A stretch of DNA of 64,000 nt from Myxococcales bacterium. GTDB lineage: Bacteria > Myxococcota_A > Polyangia > Polyangiales > Houyiibacteriaceae. Below, piece by piece: positions 17,153-24,459 of this stretch (within the stretch, counting starts at the first letter, position 1; each line of letters starts with the position of its first letter). The stretch is from contig JAOTYL010000003.1 of assembly GCA_029861865.1 (NCBI GenBank), positions 62,001 through 126,000 of the forward strand, given 5' to 3'. A model generated the notes under the pieces. It saw only the letters and a list, made by a program, of their open reading frames with translations, was not told the origin of the DNA and searched no databases. A program made the position numbers and the translations under genes.

Positions 17153-18225
17153 CCCACGGCCTCTCTCGCGAACCGTTGAGCGGCGCCGATTGGTTTGCCG
17201 TCGAGTACGACCCCGCTACCGACGAGGTGGTGATGCTCGACCAGCGTCTCTTGCCCGCGGAGATCGAGTATCGCCGGTACCGCACCCCCGACGAGGTGGC
17301 AGGGGCGATTCGCGACATGGTCGTCCGGGGCGCCCCAGCGATCGGCATCGCTGCAGCATACGGGCTCGCTCTGCTCGCGCGGCACCAGGACGCCGATGAA
17401 AAGATGTTCTTGGTCGCCAACGGGATGGCCGGGCGCATCCTCAACGAGACCCGCCCGACGGCAGTCAACCTCGGCTGGGCGATCGCGCGAATGTCACGCA
17501 AGGCGGGGGCACTTGCGGAGCGCCCTCCCCACGACCGTTTCGAAGGGATGTTGGCGGAGGCGGAGGCGATTCATCGCGAGGACGTCGAAGCCTGTCGCCG
17601 GATGGGAGAGCTCGGCGCCGCGGATGTGCCGGAGGGCGCGGTGATCCTGACGCACTGCAATGCGGGCGGGCTCGCCACCGGGGGGTACGGGACAGCGCTC
17701 GGTGTAGTCCGGGCGGCACATGCCCAGGGCAAAGGGATTCGTGTGCTGGCGGACGAGACGCGACCCTACCTCCAAGGCGCACGGCTCACGGCGTGGGAGC
17801 TTCATCGGGATGGCATTCCGGTCGAAGTCATCACCGACAACATGTCCGGGCATTTCTTTCAAAAACGCGAGATCCAGTTCGTCGTCGTCGGGAGCGACCG
17901 TATCGCGGCGAATTCCGACGTGGCGAACAAGATCGGCACCTATGCCGTTGCCGTGCTCGCGAATCATCATGGGGTTCCCTTTACCGTTGCTGCGCCGTGG
18001 AGCACCGTCGATCTTCGCGCAGCTTCGGGCGCCGACATTCCGATCGAGCAGAGGTCGCGCGCCGAGGTTGCGCAGATCGGGGGACGGACTTTGGTGCAGG
18101 ACGGCATTCCTTGTCGCCATCCGGCGTTCGACGTCACACCGGCCAATCTCGTCGACGCGATCTATACCGAGCGCGGGGTCGTGCGCCCCAAGATCGGCGA
18201 GCGTCCCGACGTCCTGCGCGGCTGA
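17149..18225 (+). CDS. mtnA: S-methyl-5-thioribose-1-phosphate isomerase
   Basis: The product, 358 residues, matches the eIF2B-like isomerase MtnA. It contains [18 protein letters not shown], the catalytic Cys region [20 protein letters not shown], and the catalytic Asp in [20 protein letters not shown]. MtnA converts methylthioribose-1-phosphate to methylthioribulose-1-phosphate in the methionine salvage pathway. The ATG overlaps the gatB stop (ATGA), so the two are cotranscribed and coupled. No other methionine-salvage genes are adjacent. Confidence 0.94.
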
Positions 18226-18271
18226 GCAGCGCCCGGCACGCGGCGACCGGTCCCGATGATGGTGACGCCGC

Positions 18272-19567
18272 TCATGCCAGGATTTCGCCTTGCCAGAGGG
18301 CTTCTGGGCCGCTTCGCTCGCGGATCACACGCGAACGCATGCCATCGACCAGCACCTCGGGAGGAAGGGGTCGTGCGTTGTACATGCTCTGCATCTCTCG
18401 TCCGTACGCACCGGCTCCGCGGATGGCAAGTAAGTCGCCGGGCTTCACAGGTGGCAAGGGTCGATCCTTCGCGACGAAATCACCCGATTCGCAAACCGGG
18501 CCTACTACATCCACCGGGGCGAGCACGGCATCCGATGCTGGCTCGTCGATCGGCATGATCGCGTGATACGCCCCGTAGAGGGCGGGCCGGATCAGCTCGG
18601 TCATCGCGGCGTCGACAATGACGAAGCGACGGTCGCCCTGAGTCTTCGTGTAAAGGACGCGGGTGAGCAGGACACCGGCATCACCGACGATGGCGCGGCC
18701 GGGCTCGGTGATGATTTCGATGTCGGGTCGCAACATACCGGCCGTCTCGAGGCCTTCGCGAATCGCCTCGCCGAATACCTTGGCGGGAGGATAGGGGTCC
18801 ACCTCTTGTCCGTAGTGCATCGGCCAACCGCCCCCGATGTCGATCGCGCGCAGCTTGGCGCCGCGCTCCAAACAGAGCTGGGCGAAACTCCCCAAGATCT
18901 CGATCGACTCGCGCAGCGGCGCTGGGGACGTGAGCTGAGAACCGATGTGACAGGCGACCGCCTCGAGCTCGAGGTGCGGGCTCTGTACAATCCGCGGAAC
19001 GAGCTCTTCGGCCACGGGAATGGCGAGCCCAAACTTCGATTCTCGAAGCCCGGTCGCGATGTAGGGGTGGGTCTTGGCGTCGACATCCGGGTTGACCCGA
19101 AGCCCGATGGGCAATGGCCTTCCAACTTCCTTCGCGACGCTCTCTACGACATCGAGCTCCTGAACGTTTTCGACGTGGATTGCGCGAATACCGGCCTCAG
19201 CTGCGGCTGCGATCTCTTCTCGCCGCTTGCCGACGCCGCTGAACACGATGTGGTCGGGAGAGAAGCCCGCCTTGAGCGCGCGCTGCATCTCGCCGAGCGA
19301 CACGATATCCGCGCCACATCCTTGCGACGCGAGCCGCGCCAGCAAGGAGAGGTTCCCGTTGGCCTTGACCGCATAGGCGATCAGGTGCGGCGCAAATTGG
19401 AGCGCCTCGTCGATAGACCGGTATGCATCGTCGATCGCTCTACCCGAATACACGAACGCCGGCGTGTTAACCTCATCGGCGATCGAGTCGAGCGGAACTT
19501 GCTCGCACGAGAGCAGGCCGTCTCGGTACGAGAACCACTCGGATTCGGGGATGTGCGCATTGGACAT
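18272..19567 (-). CDS. lysA: Diaminopimelate decarboxylase
   Basis: The 431-residue PLP enzyme has the group IV decarboxylase pattern. It shows YAVKANGN with the PLP-binding Lys, the conserved HIGSQL, the glycine loop IDIGGGWP, EPGRAIV, and VGPVCESGDFVAKDR with the active-site Cys from the second subunit. It decarboxylates meso-diaminopimelate to lysine. It follows argH by ten bases on the minus strand and is the last gene of a three-gene run that starts with the degenerate P-type ATPase gene. mtnA converges on it with 46 bases between. Confidence 0.95.
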   Translation of the reverse strand: MSNAHIPESEWFSYRDGLLSCEQVPLDSIADEVNTPAFVYSGRAIDDAYRSIDEALQFAPHLIAYAVKANGNLSLLARLASQGCGADIVSLGEMQRALKAGFSPDHIVFSGVGKRREEIAAAAEAGIRAIHVENVQELDVVESVAKEVGRPLPIGLRVNPDVDAKTHPYIATGLRESKFGLAIPVAEELVPRIVQSPHLELEAVACHIGSQLTSPAPLRESIEILGSFAQLCLERGAKLRAIDIGGGWPMHYGQEVDPYPPAKVFGEAIREGLETAGMLRPDIEIITEPGRAIVGDAGVLLTRVLYTKTQGDRRFVIVDAAMTELIRPALYGAYHAIMPIDEPASDAVLAPVDVVGPVCESGDFVAKDRPLPPVKPGDLLAIRGAGAYGREMQSMYNARPLPPEVLVDGMRSRVIRERSGPEALWQGEILA

Positions 19568-19577
19568 GGCCGTCCCT

Positions 19578-20969
19578 TTATGATCCGCGCCTCGTCTCGA
19601 GTCGACCCCTGAGCTCGTCGATCGCCTTGGTCACGTGGTTTCGGGCTGGCCCGCCGGGCACGTCGCGACGCTCGATCGCCGTCTCCATGTCGAGCGCGTC
19701 GAAGACCGTCGCATCGAATGAGGCGTGGGCCTCTCGATAGGTCTCGAGCGGTAGCTCCGCCAACGTCTTGCCGAGCTGATGCGCCCGATCGACGAGCGTG
19801 GCTGCGATGTGGTGTGCCTCGCGGAAGGGCACACCTCGCGAAGCAAGCCAATCGGCGACCTCTGTGGCAGCGAGATGACCCGTATGAAGCGCCTCGGCCA
19901 TGCGTGCTTTGTCGAACGTGGCGGAAGCGATCGCCCCCGTCAGCACGGCCAAACAGTCGTGGACGGTGTCAAAGGCGTCGAAGACAGGCGCCTTGTCCTC
20001 TTGTAGGTCGCGATTGTACGCGAGTGGCAGGCCCTTGAGCATGACCAAGAGGTTCACGAGGGCGCCGACGACTCGACCGGTCTTGCCGCGGACCAGCTCG
20101 GGCATGTCGGGGTTCTTCTTTTGCGGCATGATCGACGAGCCGGTGGTGAATGCGTCGCTCATTTGCACGAAGCCAAACTCCTCACTCGACCAGAGCACGA
20201 GCTCTTCGGCCACGCGCGACAGATGCACGGAGCAAATTGCCAACGCGCTCACTGCTTCGAGAAGAAAGTCCCGATCGCCGACAGCGTCTATGGAGTTTTG
20301 CATGGGTCGATCGAACCCGAGGGCTTCGGCCGTGGCCGCCCGATCGATTGGGAAGGTCGTCCCAGCGAGGGCAGCGCTCCCGAGTGGCGACTCGTTCATT
20401 CTCTTGGCGGCGTCGAGCACACGGCTCCGATCGCGCTCCAACATCTCGCACCAGGCTAGGAGATGATGGGCGAGACGGGTGGGTTGGGCGCGTTGCAGGT
20501 GGGTGTAGCCTGGCATCACGAAATCGACGTGAGCCTCGGCCTTGTCGGCCAGTGCTAGCAGCAATGCGTCGATGTCGGTTGCGATCGAGTGGCAAGCTTG
20601 GCGCGTCCACAGGCGCATATCGCTGGCGACCTGGTCGTTCCGGCTCCGAGCCGTGTGAAGGCGTCCGCCTGCCTCCCCGATCGCCTCGGTGAGCGCCGCT
20701 TCGATGTTCATGTGGACGTCTTCTTTGTCGGCGTCCCATTCGAACTCACCCCGCTCGATCACAGCGCGGATCTTCTCGAGGCCCGCCACGATCTTCTTGG
20801 CATCCTTGGCGGTCAGGATCTTCTGATCGGCGAGCATGCGCACGTGTGCGATCGAGCCGTCGATGTCCTGCGGCCACAGGCGTTGATCGACATCCACGCT
20901 CGCGCTGAATCTCGCTGCGATGGCGTCCAACTCTTCGTCGAAGCGCCCGCCCCATGCCTTTTTACTCAT
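19578..20969 (-). CDS. argH: Argininosuccinate lyase
   Basis: The 463-residue protein carries the fumarase/aspartase superfamily signature GSSIMPQKKNPD, with the catalytic Ser loop. It also has HTARSRNDQVASDMRLW and MPGYTHLQRAQPT, which are diagnostic of ArgH. It cleaves argininosuccinate to arginine and fumarate. A GGAG sequence lies about nine bases before the ATG. Thirteen bases separate it from the upstream ATPase-like gene, so the two are likely cotranscribed. Confidence 0.96.
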   Translation of the reverse strand: MSKKAWGGRFDEELDAIAARFSASVDVDQRLWPQDIDGSIAHVRMLADQKILTAKDAKKIVAGLEKIRAVIERGEFEWDADKEDVHMNIEAALTEAIGEAGGRLHTARSRNDQVASDMRLWTRQACHSIATDIDALLLALADKAEAHVDFVMPGYTHLQRAQPTRLAHHLLAWCEMLERDRSRVLDAAKRMNESPLGSAALAGTTFPIDRAATAEALGFDRPMQNSIDAVGDRDFLLEAVSALAICSVHLSRVAEELVLWSSEEFGFVQMSDAFTTGSSIMPQKKNPDMPELVRGKTGRVVGALVNLLVMLKGLPLAYNRDLQEDKAPVFDAFDTVHDCLAVLTGAIASATFDKARMAEALHTGHLAATEVADWLASRGVPFREAHHIAATLVDRAHQLGKTLAELPLETYREAHASFDATVFDALDMETAIERRDVPGGPARNHVTKAIDELRGRLETRRGS

Positions 20970-20981
20970 CGTGGTTCTCCG

Positions 20982-23027
20982 CTATTGCTGCATCGGCACC
21001 CGCAGGTCTACACGCCGAAGCAGTCGGGAGCCAGCCCGGAGCGTCCAAGCCTCAGTTCCAAGCCCGAGCAGAGCCGCTGCCATCGGCGTCATCCAGCCAA
21101 GCGCGGCACCAACGACGACGGCGAGTGTGGCTGCCCCGCAGACCCCGAGGCTCCGCCAGACCGTCCTCCGAGCGGCCCGGGCAATCCAAAGTGCGCCGGC
21201 GGCATCGCGGACGTCGTGGCTGGCGATCGCGACTCCGCGGTCTTCGAGCGCCGAGCCGACCAAGCGAAGAGGGATCGGCACGTCCGCTGCCGCAAGCAGC
21301 ATGTCGTCGTCTCCGCCCCGGCCAACCATGGCGACGATGCCTCCGGTCTCTCGAAGCCCGCGCACTTCGGCAACGCGCTCTGCCGGCAATAGGGGAGCCT
21401 TGACCTGCGGGGCCCCGAGGTGAGTCGCGATCCGCTCCACCGTCTTGCGATCGTCGCCGGAAAGAATGACGACTTCGGACGGCAAGTCGGAAATCCGCTG
21501 GACGGCATCCCGAGCCTCGACGTGCGTGGGGTCGAGGATCGCCACCAGCGCTTCGAGCCGGCCATCGACCGCAATGAAGATCGGCGTCAGCCCCTCGTGC
21601 TCGATGTGCTCAGCGTCGGCGTCGGCACTTGCGACGCTGATCCCTTCGTCCAAGAGCAGCTGGCGCCGACCCACGACGAGAGGAGCTCCTTCGTGTGTGA
21701 CCGCGGTGACGCCGAGCCCCGGGTGCAGGCAGGCTCGACGCACCTGAAGTGCCACGTCACCGTGCTCGGCCGCGTAATGACGAATCGCCCGCGCGATAGG
21801 GTGGTCTGCGACGATTCGCTCCGCCGCCGCCGCCATGCCCAACAGCTCAGCAAGCTCCATTTCCCCCAACCTCTGCACCTGTTGGACGATGGGCTCGCCT
21901 GCCGTCAGCGCCCCCCGCAAGACGATCGCGGTGGTATTCACGCGGCCCGCGTCGCGGAGGGCCTTCGAGCTACCGAAAAACATCCCGCGTCGTGCCGTTG
22001 CCAGCGAGGCGGCCGCGACGGGAACATCGAGAGACGCGAGCATGCCGATCAGAGGCACTCCAAGTAGCAGCGCTGCGGCGCTATCCAGTCCGTTCCACAC
22101 AGCCAACGCGATCACGATCGGTCCCAGCACGGCCCAGCTCCACTGGTCGATCGCCCAATGCAAACGGCTGGCGGCCCCTGCGTCTTGCTGCCTACGACGC
22201 GCGAGCTCGACGGCTCGCACGATCCCGCGGCGCTTGTCGGTGCGGCGAACCCGAACGTTGAGTGCGCCGTCGATCACGCGAGTGCCGGCGAGGAGAAAAT
22301 CTCCTTCGTCGTACTGTCTCGAGAGCGCGGCCTCGGGGTATCTCAATGCCACGCCAGAGCCTCCCTCGACTGTGCCGTCGGCAGGGACGAGCTCTCCTTC
22401 AAGAACCACGACGAGGTCGCCTTGTTGCAGATGCTCCACCGGCACTTCTTCGTAGGTCGATCGATCGTAAGAGGGCACACGGGCCTTGGTCGGCAAGCTT
22501 TCGAGAAGTGCTCGTTCAGCTTTGCGCAGCGACGAGACTATCGAAGCGTAAACCCATCCCCGGACGGACACGACGAGCGCTGCCACTCCGAGGCCAATGA
22601 TCGACCACGTGGACGGACGTTCGCCAAGTGTCATGAGCGTCGAGACGGCCGCGAGCGTCAAGCCCACCGGTGCAGTCACCTGGACCAAGCGACTCGCATC
22701 GACCGCCCAAAGGGGTGCGCGCGCGCTGCCCAGGGAAGGGCCGTTATCTTCGCGCACCAGCGTCGCCTCGCGCACGAGGTGAGGCACGGAAGGGCGCACG
22801 ACGCTGTGCTCGTCCACGCTCTTGGAGATCGTCGAATCGAAATGATGGTCGCCCCTTAGAAATCGCTCATGACAGCCCTCACCGCAGAGGTATCGTGCCC
22901 CGTCTTCGCGCCACAGCATCAGGGGAGCGCGGAGCGGGTCGACCTGTTTCCCGCACGAAGGGCAACGGCGAGGCGGCACGTGGGGTCGCTCAGGGCGCAT
23001 CTTCAGGCTCCTACGAGGAATCGACAT
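20982..23027 (-). CDS. Degenerate heavy-metal P-type ATPase-like protein (predicted pseudoenzyme)
   Basis: The fold follows P1B ATPases along its 681 residues. There is an N-terminal Cys4 module (Cys22, Cys25, Cys48, Cys52; YHS/TRASH-like), paired helices, an actuator-like domain (DLVVVLEGELVPADGTVEGG), a phosphorylation/nucleotide region and a C-terminal helix pair. The HP-type motif ADHPIARAI is kept. Every catalytic motif is changed: DKTGT is replaced by LRGA in IVLRGALTAGEP, the membrane CPx motif by LDVPVA, and GDGxND by GRGGDDD. The frame is intact throughout, so it is not a simple pseudogene. It probably binds metal or acts as a scaffold without pumping. It heads the argH-lysA run, divergent from fumC. 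Confidence 0.8.
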   Translation of the reverse strand: MSIPRRSLKMRPERPHVPPRRCPSCGKQVDPLRAPLMLWREDGARYLCGEGCHERFLRGDHHFDSTISKSVDEHSVVRPSVPHLVREATLVREDNGPSLGSARAPLWAVDASRLVQVTAPVGLTLAAVSTLMTLGERPSTWSIIGLGVAALVVSVRGWVYASIVSSLRKAERALLESLPTKARVPSYDRSTYEEVPVEHLQQGDLVVVLEGELVPADGTVEGGSGVALRYPEAALSRQYDEGDFLLAGTRVIDGALNVRVRRTDKRRGIVRAVELARRRQQDAGAASRLHWAIDQWSWAVLGPIVIALAVWNGLDSAAALLLGVPLIGMLASLDVPVAAASLATARRGMFFGSSKALRDAGRVNTTAIVLRGALTAGEPIVQQVQRLGEMELAELLGMAAAAERIVADHPIARAIRHYAAEHGDVALQVRRACLHPGLGVTAVTHEGAPLVVGRRQLLLDEGISVASADADAEHIEHEGLTPIFIAVDGRLEALVAILDPTHVEARDAVQRISDLPSEVVILSGDDRKTVERIATHLGAPQVKAPLLPAERVAEVRGLRETGGIVAMVGRGGDDDMLLAAADVPIPLRLVGSALEDRGVAIASHDVRDAAGALWIARAARRTVWRSLGVCGAATLAVVVGAALGWMTPMAAALLGLGTEAWTLRAGSRLLRRVDLRVPMQQ

Positions 23028-23064
23028 CGGGTCAAGGACGCGGTAAGTGACCGCCGGAGGTCAG

Positions 23065-24459
23065 ATGGCAACGCGTGTGGAAACCGATTCGATGGGCCCG
23101 ATCGAAGTGCCCGCCGACAAGTACTACGGCGCTCAGACCATGCGGTCCCGCAAGAATTTCAAAATCGGTCAGGAGCGCATGCCGATTGAAGTGATTCATG
23201 CTTTTGGAATCCTCAAGAAGGCCGCGGCCATCACCAACCTCGAGCTCAAGAATCTCGACCAAGACATCTGCGATTTGATTGTGCGGGCCGCGGATGAGGT
23301 CATCGAGGGCAAGCTCGATGATCACTTTCCGCTCGTCGTCTGGCAGACCGGCTCGGGCACTCAGTCGAACATGAACGTCAATGAAGTGATCTCGAATCGC
23401 GCCATCGAGCTTGCTGGTGGGGAGATGGGGTCGAAGAAGCCCGTTCATCCGAACGACCACGTCAATCGATCGCAGTCTTCGAACGATACCTTTCCCACGG
23501 CGATGCACATTGCCGCGGTCATCCAAATCGAAGACAGGCTTCTTCCGCGCGTTCGCATTCTGCGCGATACACTGCAAGGGAAATCCGAAGCCTTTGCCGA
23601 TATCGTGAAAATCGGAAGGACGCACCTTCAGGATGCGACGCCCCTGACCCTCGGGCAGGAGATAAGCGGTTGGGTCTCGCAGATCGATCACGGGCTCAGC
23701 ACCATCGAAGCGACGCTCCCCCAGCTTCGCGAGCTCGCGCTCGGGGGAACGGCGGTGGGTACTGGGCTCAACACGCATCCCAAATATGCCAAACGCGTCG
23801 CGGCCAAGATCGCCGAGCTCACCCGAAAGAAGTTTGTCACGGCGCCCAACAAGTTTGCAGTCCTCGCCGGCCATGATGCGTTCGTTGGAACCAGTGGCGC
23901 ACTGAAACAACTGGCCGTGGCGCTCATGAAGATCGCCAATGACGTTCGCTGGTTGGCGTCCGGGCCGCGCTCCGGCATCGGGGAGATTCGGATTCCAGAG
24001 AACGAGCCGGGTAGCTCGATCATGCCGGGCAAGGTGAACCCCACTCAATGTGAGGCGCTCACGATGGTGTGCACGCAGGTGATGGGCAACGACGTGACCA
24101 TTGGTGTCGCAGGTTCGCAAGGGAACTTCGAGCTCAACGTGTACAAACCGGTGATGGCGTACAATCTCCTCCAATCGGTGAAGCTTCTCGGCGACTCCGC
24201 GAAGAGCTTCAACGACAACTGCGCCGTGGGGATCGAGCCCAATCTCGAGACGATCGACGACAAGCTCCGACGTTCATTGATGCTGGTGACCGCCCTCAAC
24301 CCGTCGATCGGCTATGACAATGCGGCCAAAGTCGCCAAACATGCCTACAAGAACAACACGACCCTTCGAGAAGCAGCGATCGAGCTCGGTCTGCTGACCG
24401 GTGAGGAGTTCGACGAGGCGATCAAGCCCGAAGAGATGGTGGGTCCGCTCAAGGTATGA
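23065..24459 (+). CDS. fumC: Fumarate hydratase class II
   Basis: The protein has the class II signature [16 protein letters not shown], the [14 protein letters not shown] block, and [14 protein letters not shown] with the active-site His. It interconverts fumarate and malate in the citric acid cycle without an iron-sulphur cluster. The ATG at 23065 is preferred over 23047 because GGAGG lies six bases upstream and the N-terminus then reads [11 protein letters not shown], as in homologues. It overlaps the following GNAT gene by four bases. Confidence 0.96.

Follow-up and report, generated by a model that had tools for sequence, protein, structure and literature searches.

A conserved P1B-type ATPase-like family without catalytic residues in the order Polyangiales and its frequent linkage to arginine biosynthesis genes

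Results and Discussion

Analysis of a 64,000-nucleotide stretch of contig JAOTYL010000003.1 from a Myxococcales bacterium of the order Polyangiales (hereafter the window) revealed a minus-strand gene whose product is built like a P1B-type heavy-metal ATPase and is without the residues with which such pumps work. Its homologs in other genomes of the order share these losses. The family is almost certainly a conserved pseudoenzyme, in which the pump scaffold is kept without the P-type cycle. Its genes are often associated with genes for arginine synthesis, although this linkage is not universal.

Catalytic and transport motifs

The motifs were placed by alignment to 31 control P1B-ATPases of the same phylum, and 95 members of the family, one per genome, were read from 95 genomes of the window's order. 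In the window copy, DKTGT was changed to VLRGA (21909–21923), TGE to PEAA (22326–22337), PxxK to PAER and GDGxND to GRGGDD (21306–21323), while no Cys was found at the place of the CPC ligands for metal in the membrane (22047–22055). The first Asp of GDGxND was thus lost, and the last one was found in 90 of 95 members. The window copy retained the HP motif of the N-domain (21798–21803; His in 66 and Pro in 87 of 95 members), the (S/T)GD motif as SGD (21453–21461; Asp in 65 and Glu in 21 of 95 members) and the N-domain glycines. All of these places are on the minus strand.

The phosphorylated Asp was present in all 31 controls and in none of the 95 members, of which 55 had Cys, 15 Ser and 11 Leu at its place. 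The residue was Val in the window and Leu or Met in its relatives. Moreover, 72 of 95 members had Arg in place of the DKT Thr. The Glu of TGE was found in 0 of the 92 members with a letter at that place versus 30 of the 30 controls with a letter. The CPC cysteines, which form the membrane metal site, were absent from all 95 members and present in 31/31 controls. The Lys of LPxxK was kept in one member (Arg in 87/95) versus 31/31 controls, and the first Asp of GDGxND also in only one of 95 (Arg or His in 77) versus 31/31 controls. Finally, by plain pattern matching, DKTGT and GDGxND occurred together in 27 of 27 fetched controls, and neither occurred in 33 of 33 further members. As both the phosphorylation cycle and the metal site in the membrane are gone, transport by the known P-type mechanism should, on established grounds, be excluded for proteins of such sequence.

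A sequence-only reading of the window had noted that DKTGT, CPx and GDGxND were changed and that an N-terminal Cys4 module and the HP motif remained. Alignment to the same-phylum P1B-ATPases bore out the three changes, both retained features were found in the window copy, and the losses of the TGE motif and of the LPxxK Lys are additions to that list. The family alignment that this reading had proposed showed losses and replacements common to the members. A motif-bearing copy at this locus, which it would have taken as a mark of recent decay, was not found, as the catalytic Asp was missing from all 95 members, whether at this locus or elsewhere in the order.

Homology and structure models

The window protein matched the Pfam families E1-E2_ATPase (1e-13) and HAD Hydrolase (1.8e-10), both over their cut-offs. 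Matches to the heavy-metal ATPase models of NCBIfam stayed below the respective cut-offs, with 206.4 bits against a cut-off of 346 for TIGR01525 (E of 8.7e-61), and its match to the general HAD-IC P-type ATPase model TIGR01494 was just over the cut-off. The best match among solved structures was CopA (6.3e-32), whose structures match residues 121–649 of the protein, and the homology to P1B-ATPases covers the A, P, and N domains (residues 121–656). Two AlphaFold runs with three sequences each gave mean pLDDT values of 34.0 and 34.8, and values above 70 were confined to a strand-strand-helix portion of the Cys4 module. Given these poor models, the fold assignment rests on sequence homology.

Extent and origin of the family

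Of 144 genomes of the order searched with a profile, 96 gave a match at E <= 1e-90. The 95 rows consist of the window, two sets of 60 and 33 loci, and L201. These rows are loci fetched with wide flanks, and five further family-like loci (in G017, G026, G027, and G028 of the same genus, and in G011) are outside the count. Three uncounted loci, L007 (G028), L009 (G027) and L019 (G011), were read separately and also lacked the phosphorylated Asp. G001, G004, and G029 also contain contig-end remnants next to argH, which remained uncounted. In six of the 95 members, the N-terminal part was absent from the open reading frame read, at contig ends in L096, L099, L174, L178, and L179 and by an internal stop in L180.

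When a wider profile (A2) was run against 115 genomes of the class and 112 genomes of the phylum, all matches of at least 450 bits were inside the window's order. The member in G049 scored 306 bits with A2 and 351 bits over the whole frame. Matches outside the order reached at most 324.5 bits, and every one of those fetched retained DKTGT. L201 of family f2 scored only 213 bits, yet it is at the same place upstream of argH and possesses the Cys4 module, so that the searches may have overlooked weaker members. In a quickly built tree of 46 members and 28 controls, one branch with an SH-aLRT of 100 separated the two groups. The inner order of the tree is unsure, given the long terminal branches of L106 and L136 and the simple model. 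Catalysis was most likely lost once, in an ancestor.

The frames were long and open in nearly all members. For six same-genus pairs (dS of 0.28–0.92), dN/dS of the pseudo-ATPase gene ranged from 0.14 to 0.21, and in the same pairs it was 0.07–0.14 for argH and lysA and 0.13–0.16 for comEC. The window copy gave 0.206 with its nearest relative and 0.168 with the next, and these two relatives gave a similar value (0.172) with each other. In other genera, one pair gave 0.06 and another 0.30; the higher value came from stop-to-stop frames in a pair whose argH and lysA values were also high (0.26 and 0.42). By these values, the family is under purifying selection within the genus.

The gene and its operon in the window

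The open reading frame of the pseudo-ATPase occupies positions 20982–23027 of the minus strand and contains 681 codons plus stop, with no internal stop. The start is likely the ATG at 23000, because an AGGAG at 23012–23008 ends seven bases before it and an in-frame TAG is found just upstream of the equivalent Met in four same-genus matches. The most likely coding part is therefore 20982–23000 (minus strand), which encodes 672 amino acid residues plus stop, and the nine codons at 23001–23027 (minus strand) are probably 5' leader. The next gene on the same strand is argH (19578–20969; TIGR00838 match of 615.5 bits at this place), followed by what we take, from its translation, to be lysA for diaminopimelate decarboxylase (18272–19567, minus strand). 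The intergenic gaps are 12 and 10 nt. The divergent neighbor at 23047–24459 (plus strand) is, again judged by its translation, presumably fumC. A promoter scan of 18100–23300 gave one promoter-like site, on the plus strand and inside the pseudo-ATPase gene, which is about the level of shuffled sequence.

The window copy is without 46 codons (138 bases, in frame) that carry the first transmembrane hairpin in other members; the junction is at 22742/22743 (minus strand). This absence is unique to the window copy among the members read over that part, and it may be an assembly fault. As the missing piece amounts to an even number of helices, the topology of the remainder could stand. Frame or assembly errors as the source of the motif losses are ruled out, as these losses are common to the members.

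Retained domains

Among 36 rows, the P-domain (0.45 and 0.51), Cys4 module (0.46) and N-domain (0.44) had the highest mean pairwise identities, and the linker (0.18) and M3–M4 (0.26) had the lowest; M3–M4 is the region of the metal site in real pumps. The N-domain residues Gly437, Gly439, and Gly453 (21669–21719, minus strand) were kept in 95/95 members, Glu403 in 84/95 and His409 in 66/95; we take these five to correspond to positions of the ATP pocket in CopA. His409 and the TGD Asp vary among members, which is a point against the explanation preferred below. The balance of probability tilts slightly toward a pseudo-ATPase that would still bind nucleotide. The actuator domain, whose role is dephosphorylation only, was missing in four members (L080, L081, L155, and L201), which still possess the Cys4 module and the N- and P-domains. 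Because these members come from f1, f12, and f2, the domain was probably lost more than once.

The Cys4 module (22872–22964, minus strand) is TRASH/YHS-like, with the pattern C-x2-C-x22-C-x3-C and a DPLRA motif. Its ligand places read CCCC in 88 of 89 readable members and CCCH in the remaining one. Modules of this type occur in ribosomal L24e, the adenylyl cyclase of M. phlei and the N-termini of some Cu-ATPases. The ligands reported for the cyclase YHS domain are D178, C181, C204, and C208, whose x-x2-C-x22-C-x3-C spacing equals that of the pseudo-ATPases, and in L24e, a TRASH protein, four Cys coordinate Cd (PMC4626032). Different from the cyclase, the first ligand of the pseudo-ATPases is Cys as in L24e, and DPLRA is specific to the family. 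Pfam matches to the module in 36 members were all weak, the best being DUF7576 (9e-05; 21/36), besides TRASH_HVO_1752_C (0.01; 3/36) and zf-FCS. Judged by ligand pattern and spacing, it is fairly probable that the module binds metal.

Gene neighborhoods across the order

In families f1, f4, f8, f9, and f10, argH directly followed the pseudo-ATPase gene in the same orientation in 28 of 31 loci. Among the exceptions, L082 and L097 end at a contig edge and L079 is a true exception, so that this order was found in 28 of 29 loci with downstream sequence. With L201 of f2, which has the same order, the total is 29 of 30 testable loci in six families. In f12, whose genomes reach 13.6 Mb and which probably corresponds to Polyangiaceae, the pseudo-ATPase gene was preceded by argD or argF in the same orientation in 40 of 45 loci, or 40 of the 42 with upstream sequence; L174, L178, and L179 end at a contig edge, and L114 and L164 are true exceptions. 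In the f12 locus L173, argD is at a distance of 3.8 kb. NCBIfam models confirmed argD and argF in L113 and L121 and argD in L120. No arg linkage was found in the nine loci of f5, and the order of pseudo-ATPase gene and argH was not found in any of the eight loci of f3. In two of these eight (L083 and L084), the gene is divergent to argH, with the upstream region common to both. No metal-resistance gene was recognized beside the pseudo-ATPase in the loci inspected.

The sequence-only reading had described an open frame over 681 residues in an operon with argH and lysA, and both the frame, apart from its shorter likely coding part, and the operon are real. Its further proposal of a conserved pseudo-pump at the head of amino-acid genes holds for the conservation and for the place before argH and lysA in the 29 loci above, and it does not extend to f3 and f5. 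The metal-sensing or scaffold role that it had attached to such a protein is a putative one.

Adjacent argH and lysA without the pseudo-ATPase gene were found outside the order (L202, L203, L204, L205, and L207) as well as inside it (L212, L219, and L220), which suggests that the pair is older and that the pseudo-ATPase gene joined it later. Neither argD nor argF was found beside argH in 20 argH loci examined (BLAST, 1e-15). An ancestral operon of argD, argF, the pseudo-ATPase gene, argH, and lysA that was later split was accordingly not seen among these loci.

The two true exceptions of f12 are from G136 (L164) and G140 (L114), in which no argH or argG match was found, nor any argF match in G140. 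Both lack arg neighbors and keep the pseudo-ATPase with an open frame. A third f12 genome, G108 (L186), also gave no argG or argH match, but its pseudo-ATPase gene is beside argD/argF. At 92–96% completeness of the three genomes, absence of these genes is likely, not certain, and the three are likely arginine auxotrophs that retain the pseudo-ATPase. The unlinked loci of f3 and f5, together with G136 and G140, weaken the case for an obligatory arginine-specific role. The argH matches of f12 fall into several score classes (about 250–560 bits), with two to four matches in some genomes, a pattern suggesting that the ancestral argH was replaced in this family.

Possible functions

Taken as a whole, the observations may best be explained by a non-transporting membrane protein that binds nucleotide and metal and serves as a regulator or scaffold in connection with arginine synthesis, an explanation put forward here tentatively. 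With a metal-site-like N-terminal module, an N-domain resembling a nucleotide pocket on a dead P-domain, and a membrane part as the pieces retained, a regulator or anchor that does not transport would be the simplest role. The scaffold of a heavy-metal pump would have lost its metal site in the membrane along with phosphorylation and dephosphorylation and then have been kept as a protein. The pseudo-ATPase would sit in the membrane, its N-domain would bind nucleotide without hydrolysis, and its Cys4 module would bind a metal ion of the Zn or Cu class. The nucleotide/metal state would be passed on to partner proteins, among which ArgH, ArgD, and ArgF are the first candidates, being encoded by operon mates. 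The protein would thus regulate the enzymes made from the same operons (ArgH, or ArgD/ArgF) or anchor them at the membrane, and it would not be a transporter. That its function centers on arginine-pathway enzymes is a possibility we hold with reservation. A more specific version is rather doubtful, namely that a pump turned once, in the ancestor of the order, into a membrane receptor whose shape is set by nucleotide and metal and which recruits or tunes ArgH, or ArgD/ArgF after rearrangement.

The protein could instead be a membrane metallochaperone or metal sensor without any connection to arginine, in which case its position in arg operons would reflect an inherited neighborhood or shared expression. 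The Cys4 module is among the most strictly kept features, f3 and f5 lack the operon with arg genes, and G136 and G140 keep the pseudo-ATPase without argG/argH matches, all of which would fit such a role. The two clades, however, have different arg contexts (argH-lysA and argD-argF), and the absence of argD and argF beside argH in the 20 argH loci leaves no ancestral cluster in view that could have been inherited. We regard this alternative as rather improbable. An unlikely alternative is a regulatory subunit of a true P1B-ATPase, which would pair with the active pump and either present metal to it through the Cys4 module or damp it. The N-terminal module does resemble a metal site, the window's genome contains one further P1B-like match (G000:C15, open frame of 732 amino acid residues), and the unlinked and arginine-lacking genomes leave room for such a partner, but no metal-resistance gene was recognized beside the inspected loci, where the linkage is to arginine synthesis.

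It is very unlikely that the family members are unusual ATPases that work without aspartyl-phosphate by means of other residues. Such an enzyme could make use of the Cys found at the Asp place in over half of the members, of the invariant N-domain glycines and of the conserved set of replacements (Arg at the Thr of DKT and for the Lys of LPxxK). Against it, the window and its relatives have Val, Leu, or Met and not Cys at that place, the Mg-coordinating Asp, TGE, and membrane CPC site are gone, and four members are without the actuator domain. Finally, a pseudogene or recent decay, to which the missing hairpin piece of the window copy and a TGA inside the G143 copy might point, is hardly credible, and recent decay of the family as a whole is ruled out by the dN/dS values over long open frames and by losses common to 95/95 members of one old branch.

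P-type ATPases rank among the molecular machines that are understood best. A large, old, and selected family that lacks the working residues but retains a metal-site-like module and the glycines of the nucleotide pocket would show uses of this scaffold beyond pumping. As TIGR01494 scores over its cut-off, automatic annotation would probably call these proteins P-type ATPases, and transporter counts in the order would then be inflated by roughly one for each genome with the gene. Through the linkage to arg genes, function can be approached directly in culturable myxobacteria. If the arginine-related role is true, this would be, to our knowledge, the first P-type ATPase fold acting on amino-acid metabolism.

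Comparison with known proteins

Similar to P1B-ATPases such as CopA and ZntA (TIGR01525), the pseudo-ATPases possess A, P, and N domains, membrane helices, the HP and TGD motifs and the N-domain glycines. Different from them, the family is without the phosphorylated Asp, TGE, CPC, the LPxxK Lys, and GDGxND, and the window protein scores under the TIGR01525 cut-off. In FUPA family 24 of Chan et al. (2010), a dead type I half is reportedly fused to an active type II half. Like the family described here, it would retain a non-functional type I P-type ATPase at the protein level; the myxobacterial pseudo-ATPase, however, stands alone and mostly in arg operons.

No description of this myxobacterial family was found in the open-access literature. 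The nearest printed case is human TMEM94/ERMA, a P-type-ATPase-like protein, for which one group described a protein without TGES that binds AMPPCP and has no ATPase activity (PMC12134183). This is disputed by a 2026 paper that names TMEM94 the ER Mg ATPase (PMC13322241). On the first description, TMEM94 resembles the pseudo-ATPases in lacking this motif, but it is eukaryotic and of another lineage.

One of the control ATPases, L144 from G149, is an active-looking P1B-ATPase whose N-terminus has a YHS-like stretch as in the pseudo-ATPases. It possibly gives a picture of the ancestor before the loss of catalysis.
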